Shown in pieces: positions 1 to 23,133 of a stretch of DNA of 23,665 nt. Both the position numbers and the translations under genes were made by a program. Below the pieces are notes generated by a model, which saw only the letters and a list, made by a program, of their open reading frames with translations, did not search any database and had not been told where the DNA came from. Origin of the DNA: a virus; IMG/VR virus record IMGVR_UViG_3300036766_000247, positions 1 through 23,665 of that record. The stretch is one strand, 5' to 3'. Position 1 is the stretch's first letter, and every line of letters starts with the position of its first letter.

Positions 1-410
1 ATGCCCGGGCCCTTGGGCGACACCGTGACTAGCTCGCATTCATGTATCCAATCTGGAAAGAATGTGCCTTGCGTTTCAATGGCGATCTTCATATCAGCTT
101 CCTGCAGCTTCTTTACGAGATCCGTTAGATTCCATATTGCAGGGTTTCCTCCTGATAGAGTAACCCAAGGAGTTTTATTAACGTTCATCTCGATCATCTT
201 GTTGGCAATTTCTACTGCCGTTAGATATGTCGCATTCTTTTTAACTTCCGATGCAAGCACAGCGTGCTTACTGTCACACATGCGGCAGGCGTAATCGCAA
301 GTACCAAGACGTATGAACATCGTCTGGTGCCCGCACATCGATCCTTCGCCTTGCACAGTAGGACCAAAGGCTTCTATAAGAGGTATTTTACGATCTGGTC
401 TTGCTGTCAT
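1..410 (-). CDS. queE: QueE, 7-carboxy-7-deazaguanine synthase (radical SAM), C-terminus cut by window edge
   Basis: Radical SAM enzyme that converts 6-carboxy-tetrahydropterin (QueD product) to 7-carboxy-7-deazaguanine in the preQ0 pathway. Translating the minus strand from the ATG at 410 gives 136 residues before the edge. It has GPTVQGEG at about 16-23, then the iron-sulfur motif CDYACRMC (C38, C42, C45, spacing CxxxCxxC) and LSGGNPAIW, the SAM-binding GGNP-type motif of Bacillus-like QueE. The start is supported by GAAGGG a few bases upstream. The start overlaps the end of the HNH gene by 23 nt. The last third of the protein lies outside the window. QueE is distinguished from other small radical SAM activases by the GGNP motif and by the neighbouring queC, queD and folE. 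Confidence 0.93.
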   Translation of the reverse strand, partial: MTARPDRKIPLIEAFGPTVQGEGSMCGHQTMFIRLGTCDYACRMCDSKHAVLASEVKKNATYLTAVEIANKMIEMNVNKTPWVTLSGGNPAIWNLTDLVKKLQEADMKIAIETQGTFFPDWIHECELVTVSPKGPG

Positions 411-942
411 ATTTATTTCCCTTCTTTGTGTTACATTTAAAATGTGCAAGTTGTACGTTGTTCCATACGTGAGTACCTCCCTTACTAATCGGCTTAATAT
501 GATCTATAGAACGATCTTCCAACGCAACTAATTCTCTGCAGATGCCACACATTTCTTTGTCTCTTTCATAGAGCATACTGATTGTTATATCCTTATCTAT
601 TTCGCCGTTTTTAATTGCTCTTCTTGCATGGTTTTGTTTAGCTCTAGAGTCCTTAACTTTTAGAGGATTATTCTTTCTCCATAGTTTGTGGCGCTCATTA
701 TCTTGTACTATATTATTTTCGCGATATTCTTTTTGATACTTGCTTATCTTTTCTGCATTTTGCTTAGCATATTCGCCAGTTACTTCAATCCGTTTTTCAC
801 GTGTACGCGCGTAGTATTTTTTGAAGGCTATTTTTGCGCATTGTTTGCAGTAAGGAGTAACCCCGTCTTTAGTATGTTTGTGTTTATAAAACGCCATAGT
901 TGCTTTTTCTTGTTCACACCTACAACAAACTTTATTCTTCAT
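388..942 (-). CDS. HNH endonuclease, free-standing homing type, inserted in the preQ0 operon
   Basis: 184 residues. The N-terminus carries two CxxC pairs (C6/C9 and C32/C35), probably a treble-clef or zinc ribbon. A long basic helical stretch follows, then a C-terminal HNH nuclease: CGIC at 132-135, the D147-H148 pair in SIDHIKPISKGG, NN at 161-162, and AHFKCN near 170. This layout is typical of phage HNH homing endonucleases that cut DNA and promote their own spread. It sits between queD and queE, overlapping the end of queD by 11 nt and the start of queE by 23 nt. Its ATG has no clear ribosome binding site, so it may be translated by coupling to queD. It is AT-richer than its neighbours. 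No role in base modification is implied. Confidence 0.9.
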   Translation of the reverse strand: MKNKVCCRCEQEKATMAFYKHKHTKDGVTPYCKQCAKIAFKKYYARTREKRIEVTGEYAKQNAEKISKYQKEYRENNIVQDNERHKLWRKNNPLKVKDSRAKQNHARRAIKNGEIDKDITISMLYERDKEMCGICRELVALEDRSIDHIKPISKGGTHVWNNVQLAHFKCNTKKGNKYDSKTRS

Positions 943-9433: not shown

Positions 9434-10329
9434 GAAATATCCTCTTTATCCCGGATACCCTTATAGATAGGAAATCGTGGTTGATCGTATCCTCCATAAG
9501 TCATATGTTTGAACTTTAGGGTTTTACCGAGGTATTCGGCTTGATTGTCCCAAATTTTTTGACGCTCTGCATCATTTAATCCTGATCCAACGGTAAACTC
9601 ATCATGGAAAAGATCACACAGAACTCTAAATGCCCCAAGAGTGCCTTCTGGCATCATATTTTCTTTGTGCGAAGAACGTTCTGCATTACCAAGAAGGTCT
9701 CTTGTTTGTTCGTTGCAGTTTTTCATGCGCTCAACGAAACCTATGATGGTTGCTTCATCTTCACGGAACTGTTTTACTTTAAGGAGCGTTCCTTCCTTTA
9801 ATGTGGATCGTCCGTATTTATAGGGGCCGTCTAAGCTTCGAATCATTACCCCCTCATATCCTTGGTGTAAGCACAGTGCTTCAAAGGCTCCGAGCTCCTC
9901 AGAGTCAGGGATTTCAGTATGTTCGACAAGCTTTATGTGCGGACAATTAAGCCCTAATACGCGTTCTTTAAGCTCTTCATACCTTACTTCAAATGGCACG
10001 TGAGGATCGGTAACATCATCGAAAACCCAAAAGACGAAATCAGACTCACCCTCTTCTGCCATTACTCCGCTAGTCGTTGCTCTAAACGCCATTGGATCGC
10101 TTGGATTGCCTACCAGTATTTCGCCGTCTAATCCTTCAAAATCTGGATCAGCGAGAATTGATTGCACAAACTTATTGCGAACCGGTTTGAGGCTGCGTGT
10201 AACGGGGATTCCGTCGAGGATGAGGACTCTGATTCCGTCAAGCTTTGGTGATCCTAGAACTGGATAGATGATCTTGTCAAAGTCTTCGGTTTCAAGGGTT
10301 GCTGCGAGAAGCGGTTTAAATTGGCTCAT
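9430..10329 (-). CDS. ATP-dependent DNA ligase, small phage type
   Basis: 299 residues from the ATG at 10329 (AGGAAA upstream); a longer in-frame start at 10392 adds 21 residues without family similarity. The nucleotidyltransferase motifs are in order: I, SPKLDGIRV, with adenylated lysine K29; the R and LDGEI segments (III-like); FWVFDD; EGVMIR (IV); and LLKVKQ (V). A C-terminal OB-fold region ends PRFPIYKGIRDKED. Size and layout resemble T7-like phage ligases that seal nicks using ATP. Together with the recombination genes it points to a phage-encoded replication and repair set. Confidence 0.92.
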   Translation of the reverse strand: MSQFKPLLAATLETEDFDKIIYPVLGSPKLDGIRVLILDGIPVTRSLKPVRNKFVQSILADPDFEGLDGEILVGNPSDPMAFRATTSGVMAEEGESDFVFWVFDDVTDPHVPFEVRYEELKERVLGLNCPHIKLVEHTEIPDSEELGAFEALCLHQGYEGVMIRSLDGPYKYGRSTLKEGTLLKVKQFREDEATIIGFVERMKNCNEQTRDLLGNAERSSHKENMMPEGTLGAFRVLCDLFHDEFTVGSGLNDAERQKIWDNQAEYLGKTLKFKHMTYGGYDQPRFPIYKGIRDKEDIS

Positions 10330-22085: not shown

Positions 22086-22462
22086 ATCTTATCACTACCT
22101 CCAACGACCCGCCAAATTTGTTTGATGGTTCGACGTAGTCCGCCTGTTTTGGGACCACGAGGATCATACAGTATCCCATGATCTAGTACAAAGAGGTGAT
22201 CAAATGTTCCTAGGAGAAATAACCCTTTAGGGTATTTTTTAATTACCTTGCGCAACTCTATAGGTTCGGTAGGCTCTAAACGTAAACGTAGTCCAAGTAG
22301 TCCTGCAGCGTTTCTCCATTCAGTATCTTCCATACCTCGTTTTTCTGTAAATCCGTACGACTTACACGCACGTAACACTGCAAACTCATCTATACCAACA
22401 GCATAGTGCAGTGCGCACACAACACAGGCACCTTCAATGGTATGTATTTTAGGTCTTTTCAT
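22082..22462 (-). CDS. Papain-like (C39/C1-type) cysteine peptidase-fold protein
   Basis: 126 residues from the ATG at 22462; the open frame extends further upstream but that part is not protein-like and overlaps the preceding gene. Features: EGACVVCALHYAVGIDEFAV with a candidate nucleophile cysteine (C13 or C16), a helix with KSYGFTEKRGMEDTEWRNAA, LGLRLRL, YPKGLFLLGTFDHLFVLDHG with the candidate catalytic histidine in FDH, and a final ILYDPRGP. The order C...H...D/N is that of papain-like peptidases, and many phages carry small proteins of this kind with unknown substrate. It may be a non-peptidase relative. Confidence 0.6.
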   Translation of the reverse strand: MKRPKIHTIEGACVVCALHYAVGIDEFAVLRACKSYGFTEKRGMEDTEWRNAAGLLGLRLRLEPTEPIELRKVIKKYPKGLFLLGTFDHLFVLDHGILYDPRGPKTGGLRRTIKQIWRVVGGSDKI

Positions 22463-22673
22463 TTGATGTGTCCGCCAATATTTGTGCACGCATCTCTTGC
22501 TCATGTTGATCAGCTGCAGCTTGTGCCAATGCAATAACGCAGTCATAAAAGTCATCTGGCATTTTAACTTGAACAACTGCCTCACCAGCTGGTTTTAATA
22601 GTATATATGCACGACAAATTTTCTTTGTCTTGTCACCATCGAAATGGAACATGAGCTGTTTAATGTGAGCCAT
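22449..22673 (-). CDS. Hypothetical small protein
   Basis: 74 residues: MAHIKQLMFHFDGDKTKKIC, RAYILLKPAGEAVVQVKMPD then DFYDCVIALAQAAADQHEQE. A short strand pair and a C-terminal helix (YDCVIALAQAAADQHEQEMR). The ATG at 22673 follows GAGGAG by eight bases. The start lies 4 nt after the DUF1566 stop, and the end overlaps the peptidase-like gene by 14 nt. No family recognised. Confidence 0.65.
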   Translation of the reverse strand: MAHIKQLMFHFDGDKTKKICRAYILLKPAGEAVVQVKMPDDFYDCVIALAQAAADQHEQEMRAQILADTSNEKT

Positions 22674-22677
22674 TACT

Positions 22678-23133
22678 TCAACTCCTCACCTGCCGGCGCG
22701 GGAGCGAAGGTGCTGCCACCAAGCGCACGGGCCGGCAGGACAAGCGATAGTCGTCCTTAGGGAACCAACCCTCGCTACCACCCGAGAAGCGGACACCAAG
22801 CACGTCGGACGAGTTGTCACGGTCCTCCGTGGACGACCAGTACCAGCAAGGAAAATCGGAACCGCCCCTTTCTGCCGTGCAGAACCCTCCAAACCGGTCT
22901 TTATTTATATACATCAACCGCAATTCATTAAGTGTCGGTATGTACCAACCATCACCAAGGTTTTTAACCGCTTCCACGGCATCAAGATACGTCATGGTTT
23001 CCGGCAGGTCTTTTGGGTAGACATCGAACGGTAGGCCGAAGTCACCGTATGCAACCTTTGACACCTGCGCAATATCTGTTTCCTGAGAGCATATCCATTG
23101 GTAGATGTAATCAAGTTTTTCGCTGTCGTTCAT
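22678..23133 (-). CDS. DUF1566 (Lcl-type C-lectin fold) protein, candidate DGR target
   Basis: 151 residues. The family core is clear: TYLDAVEAVKNLGDGWYIPT, NELRLMYINKDRFGGFCTAE, CWYWSSTE, VRFSGG, then SCRPVRLV at the end. This is the DUF1566/Lcl domain, a C-type-lectin-like fold and a known target class of diversity-generating retroelements (DGRs). The last 40 residues (about 96-137, coordinates 22723-22848) match the usual variable region: between fixed YWSSTE and RPVR lie D, R, D, N, S, S, D, G, S, E and further variable residues, with many codons ending in C or T. The coding strand there is GC-rich and poor in A, unlike the rest of the gene. No reverse transcriptase or template repeat was found here. 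The start overlaps the preceding stop as ATGA. Confidence 0.8.
   Translation of the reverse strand: MNDSEKLDYIYQWICSQETDIAQVSKVAYGDFGLPFDVYPKDLPETMTYLDAVEAVKNLGDGWYIPTLNELRLMYINKDRFGGFCTAERGGSDFPCWYWSSTEDRDNSSDVLGVRFSGGSEGWFPKDDYRLSCRPVRLVAAPSLPRRQVRS
22689..22739. repeat. Inverted repeat at the 3' end of the candidate variable region
   Basis: CCTGCCGGC (22689-22697) and GCCGGCAGG (22731-22739) form a perfect 9-bp inverted repeat, 33 nt apart. GGTG-CTGC-CACC (22709-22720) is a further hairpin inside it. It overlaps the end of the DUF1566 gene. Hairpins or cruciforms just past the variable region are a known feature of DGR targets, although there the loop is shorter. Confidence 0.65.

Follow-up and report, generated by a model that had tools for sequence, protein, structure and literature searches.

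The lectin gene and its surroundings

The window, that is, the whole stretch of DNA analysed here, is one linear virus sequence of 23,665 bases; it encodes, on the minus strand, a small protein of the C-type-lectin kind, considered below as a candidate target of a diversity-generating retroelement (DGR). The features that bear on the argument are the following.

22678..23133, minus strand: stand-alone Lcl_C/DUF1566-type C-type-lectin protein, candidate variable protein (ORF of 151 aa; PF07603 match; alignment with 25 relatives)
22825..22845, minus strand: 5' anchor WYWSSTE, aa 97-103 (from the sequence; nearly invariant in the alignment)
22738..22824, minus strand: core of the candidate variable region, aa 104-132 (29 codons, of which none ends in A and eight end in T)
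22717..22737, minus strand: 3' anchor CRPVRLV, aa 133-139 (from the sequence and the alignment; in related DGRs the match between variable region and template ends here)
22689..22739, no strand: perfect 9-bp inverted repeat with a 33-nt loop (arms 22689-22697 and 22731-22739)
22681..22716, minus strand: GC-rich C-terminal tail AAPSLPRRQVRS, 12 residues, missing from the aligned relatives
22449..22673, minus strand: downstream 74-aa gene, starting 4 nt past the stop codon of the lectin gene (tight operon)

The coordinates, the reading frame and the anchors YWSSTE and SCRPVRLV (the latter being residues 132-139) were given exactly in the original prediction. The assignment of the protein to the DUF1566/Lcl fold is backed by the conserved Lcl_C core, which in the alignment comprises G.W.P...EL, WYWSST, F..G and RPVR, and by the match of a profile built from the 26-sequence alignment to the solved chains 8q4e (E=1.9e-13) and 4eps (E=5.2e-6), but the score against Lcl_C itself (PF07603; E=1.1e-6, 29.4 bits) lies under the Pfam curated cut-off of 34.9 bits, as is likewise the case for Pseudomonas phage genes of a similar kind (W03, W10). 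A phmmer search of PDB with the window protein alone gave no match, and the AlphaFold2 model obtained with 26 relatives (pLDDT 50, pTM 0.33) was too poor for use.

The candidate variable region lies near the 3' end of a C-type-lectin-type gene, which is a feature of DGR targets. The AGGAG of the likely ribosome site of the downstream 74-aa gene is located inside the 3' end of the lectin gene; the product of that gene has no Pfam or PHROG match and was not identified as Avd or a reverse transcriptase (RT) by family search. The lectin gene, whose product might, according to the original prediction, be a binding protein for host or surface recognition, is found among small non-structural genes, as are the targets seen in the Pseudomonas phages, and not in a tail module.

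Besides a replication module, preQ0 genes (FolE, QueC, a QueD-type PTPS and a radical-SAM QueE-type end) are present in the record, and no recognised structural gene was seen among the window genes scanned. The nearest complete genome found is that of the Brevundimonas phage vB_BpoS-MaInes, which has the Que genes, exonuclease, SNF2 helicase, ligase and DUF3854 gene in common with the record, in a largely conserved order, the DUF3854 protein being 42.7% and the exonuclease 43.2% identical. Since this genome is 68,997 bp long, the full genome of the window phage is probably near 69 kb and the record covers about one third of it; as judged from this one relative, the host is probably an alphaproteobacterium. 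MaInes has neither an Lcl_C nor an RVT_1 match, so that the lectin gene is accessory. Peptide scans for sister phages yielded a 7.5-kb contig (L001) with a 93% identical helicase and a Sak4 relative (L073, 52%); neither contains an RT, and both are too short to inform on the lectin target. In addition, an HNH-endonuclease gene (window 388-942) separates the QueE-type gene of the preQ0 cluster from the QueD-type gene and, because these two are adjacent in MaInes, appears to be an inserted free-standing gene of the homing type.

Base composition and codon signature

The segment 22723-22848 had been singled out as GC-rich and poor in adenine, with about 15 adenines in 126 nt; exactly 15 are present on the coding strand, and a count as low as this occurs in 0.2% of all coding-strand stretches of 126 nt. 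Its GC content of 0.635 exceeds that of every other 126-nt stretch in the record, which reach 0.571 at most and average 0.43, so that the compositional claim is correct as far as the region itself is concerned, but the surrounding DNA, at 43% GC, is only mildly AT-rich. The GC content is 0.64 across 22678-22848, and the high GC does not end with the variable codons but goes on as far as the stop codon, a run for which adenine mutagenesis alone does not account.

The shortage of adenine is a stronger argument for a DGR when it is examined by codon position than as a plain adenine count. While the 29 codons of the variable region contain no third-position A and eight third-position T, the preceding 60 codons contain 13 and 18, respectively, and not one of the 5,482 29-codon stretches in the 38 other window genes is free of third-position A. 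When the codons between WYWSST and RPVR were compared among Lcl_C genes, third-position A numbered at most one in all 17 DGR-linked genes, whatever the GC content of the genome, and 0-1 in four of the remaining 18 non-orphan genes used for comparison, most of the comparison genes having 2-15; these proportions do not make a clean likelihood ratio because the labels are imperfect (a gene was labelled DGR-linked if an RT was present in the same record, or a template, and some genes labelled non-DGR may be unrecognised targets) and the phages are interrelated. Third-position T numbered at least four in 10 of the 17 DGR-linked genes. The signature is a correlate established in this analysis and not a published criterion.

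The same composition could have arisen if the 3' third of the gene had been recombined in from a GC-rich genome with an ordinary, non-DGR lectin domain, the low adenine content being that of the donor. The GC content of 0.64 over 22678-22848, continuing through the non-variable tail, fits such an origin, as do the GC-rich Lcl_C genes L044 and L058, which have no third-position A and for which no RT was found in the respective record or genome; besides, the lectin gene is missing from the closest complete phage relative, so that it has been acquired or lost. However, plain high GC would not lead one to expect eight T and no A at the third position of 29 codons, and third-position T is found only once in L044 and not at all in L058. 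We regard a GC-rich donor as a serious alternative, though a rather unlikely one. L044 may itself be a DGR target because a second, similar gene with a region resembling a variable region is present: this 45-kb GC-rich viral record, which has no RT match, contains three Lcl_C-type matches (at 9665-10219 and around 5622, among others), two of which have a similar framework and a different variable stretch.

That the gene is an ordinary, stable phage lectin-like gene that has never been part of a DGR, its composition being due to chance or to selection on a W/G/D-rich sequence, is improbable: DUF1566 proteins without DGRs do exist, as had been pointed out (examples in this analysis being L016, L022, L045 and several bacterial DUF1566/Lcl_C genes, all with no RT found and no signature), but all of these have at least four third-position A, and the complete lack of third-position A is unmatched in the other window genes.

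The 3' end of the gene

The 9-bp inverted repeat noted at the 3' end is real and perfect; when the region was simulated 200 times with a first-order Markov model, a repeat of equal length arose in four cases, and the folding of the strand is only modestly better than that of shuffled sequences (z=-1.6). In DGRs of the phage type, the variable region is followed by a hairpin with a GC stem of 7-10 bp and a 4-nt GRNA loop (PMC3240598). No short-loop hairpin follows the variable region of the window, and the inverted repeat was set aside as a DGR hairpin on account of its 33-nt loop. The absence of a hairpin is not decisive, since a scan of the clear Pseudomonas DGR (L064, L065) revealed no stem of at least 6 bp either.

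Many Lcl_C targets (L002, L014, L025, L034, L059, L061) have a TAA or TAG stop followed by CTTT- or CCTTT-like pyrimidine tracts after the variable region and, in several cases, a GC-rich hairpin after the tract. These tracts may possibly be a common feature of homing sites; the 3' flank in the window is devoid of them.

Reverse transcriptase, template and alleles

The original prediction reported neither an RT nor a template repeat in the window, which is confirmed by RVT_1 and repeat searches of the 23.7-kb record; the record, though, is a fragment. Searches of IMG/VR with the exact 5' and 3' anchors together, with the 5' anchor or with the 3' anchor retrieved no template for this variable region, the 3'-anchor matches being unrelated, and the comparison with the other loci yielded only adenine-rich stretches (28-35 A in 50 nt), which would match any sequence. 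Six-peptide scans, run on viral or genome contigs, found no relative of the lectin gene and no second allele. The absence of an RT from the record is weak evidence because a template and its target can be 12.6 kb or about 27 kb apart, distances that the fragment does not exclude: in the DGR of Bacteroides phage F4 (PMC8143477), which also has a DUF1566 target, 12.6 kb separate the target from its template, and in G020 (IMG/VR 3300042816_000038) the positions are about 5.7 kb for the template and about 32.7 kb for the target. In F4, unlike the window record, target, template and RT are all present in the genome. An RT was found in 12 of the 21 records of at least 35 kb that hold such a lectin gene.

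Clear pairs of template and variable region were seen in L025, L034, L043, L059, L064, L065, L068, L033, L002 and L061; the L061 pair was read by eye, and in the pairs scored by script all mismatches in the best 50- or 60-nt stretch, 11-18 in number, are at adenines. The DUF1566 target in L033 has its template at L098:5742-5797, about 27 kb away on one viral contig, with 18 adenine mismatches and none at other bases in 50 nt.

The 18-nt 5' anchor of the window, TACTGGTCGTCCACGGAG, is present in three IMG/VR contigs and belongs to a DUF1566 target in only one of them (3300031260_000088, L061), which is a complete DGR with template and RT. Its DUF1566 variable region ends, as in the window, in an R(P/A)VR-type motif; however, the L061 target is a 715-aa fusion with a small intervening ORF (Avd-like by position) and with template and RT within about 1.5 kb, whereas the window encodes a stand-alone protein of 151 aa, with no intervening ORF, template or RT seen.

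Orphan targets in RT-less Pseudomonas phages

In the P. aeruginosa phages phPA-G and Haboob, a DGR (L064:9779-12749; L065:4782-7750) consisting of two DUF1566 targets, Avd, template and RT is located beside the cI region. Its targets are, like the window protein, small (about 163-195 aa), stand-alone and encoded in a non-structural region, but Avd, template and RT lie directly downstream of them. The phPA-G template is shared with variable regions of genomes that have no RT, namely, nine jumbo phages of the PA5oct group, FBPa19, D3, PMG1 and U7 (L077-L085, L004, L005, L066, L067), and in most of these the mismatches to the template are adenine-only or adenine-biased. FBPa19 differs from it at 17 of 30 template adenines and at none of 57 other bases, PA5oct at 15 adenines and one other base, and Ettore at 16 and three; the remaining genomes have 2-13 non-adenine changes (up to 20 adenine and 13 other). 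The altered regions of D3 and PMG1 are near-identical and contain non-adenine changes, and the nine jumbo genomes (285-288 kb) contain several distinct variable regions on frameworks that are 91-97% identical. These orphan regions could stem from either mutagenesis in trans or capture by recombination. The window resembles the orphan targets (PA5oct, FBPa19, D3 and others) in that a lectin gene of the variable type is accompanied by no RT in the record, but their template is known from other phages, and the window protein has only about 25% identity with the framework common to phPA-G, Haboob and the RT-less phages.

Origin of the variable region

Taken together, the codon-position test and the relatives with proven pairs of template and variable region support the proposal that the gene is a DGR target, whereas the lack of an RT and a template in the record and an inverted repeat that is not of the DGR hairpin type do not. 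The window gene looks like a DGR target, and a link to a DGR is likely; we assign a probability of roughly 0.6 to the reading that the variable region is DGR-shaped and that its RT and template are encoded outside the record. The case is weakened by the failure of the scans to find a second allele, by the GC-rich 12-residue tail, missing from the relatives, and by the tight operon with a downstream gene of no known family. We refrain from classifying the locus itself as a DGR, since the searches yielded neither an RT nor a template and since the hairpin described in the literature is missing.

Given the gene, its anchors and its codon signature, a DGR as the maker of the variable region would have operated as follows. 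An RT would have copied a template rich in codons of the AAC/AAT type, misreading the template adenines, and the resulting cDNA would have replaced the segment between WYWSSTE and CRPVR, the varied residues presumably being on the ligand-binding face of the fold. The RT and the template could be encoded in the remaining part of the phage genome or in another element (host or prophage), which might have acted in trans or have donated an already varied segment that was captured. By analogy with the orphan targets of the RT-less Pseudomonas phages, such an outside source is plausible; the specific version in which the phage itself lacks a DGR and the variable region is written in trans by a DGR of the host or a prophage is, nevertheless, unlikely.

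With the third-codon-position test, DGR-shaped regions can be flagged even where a fragment contains no RT, and the RT-less Pseudomonas phages pose a testable question, namely, whether the DGR of one element diversifies a gene of another phage. If confirmed, the window gene would represent a DGR-diversified lectin outside the tail module, in a group of phages with 7-deazaguanine genes, the closest complete relative of which has no such lectin.
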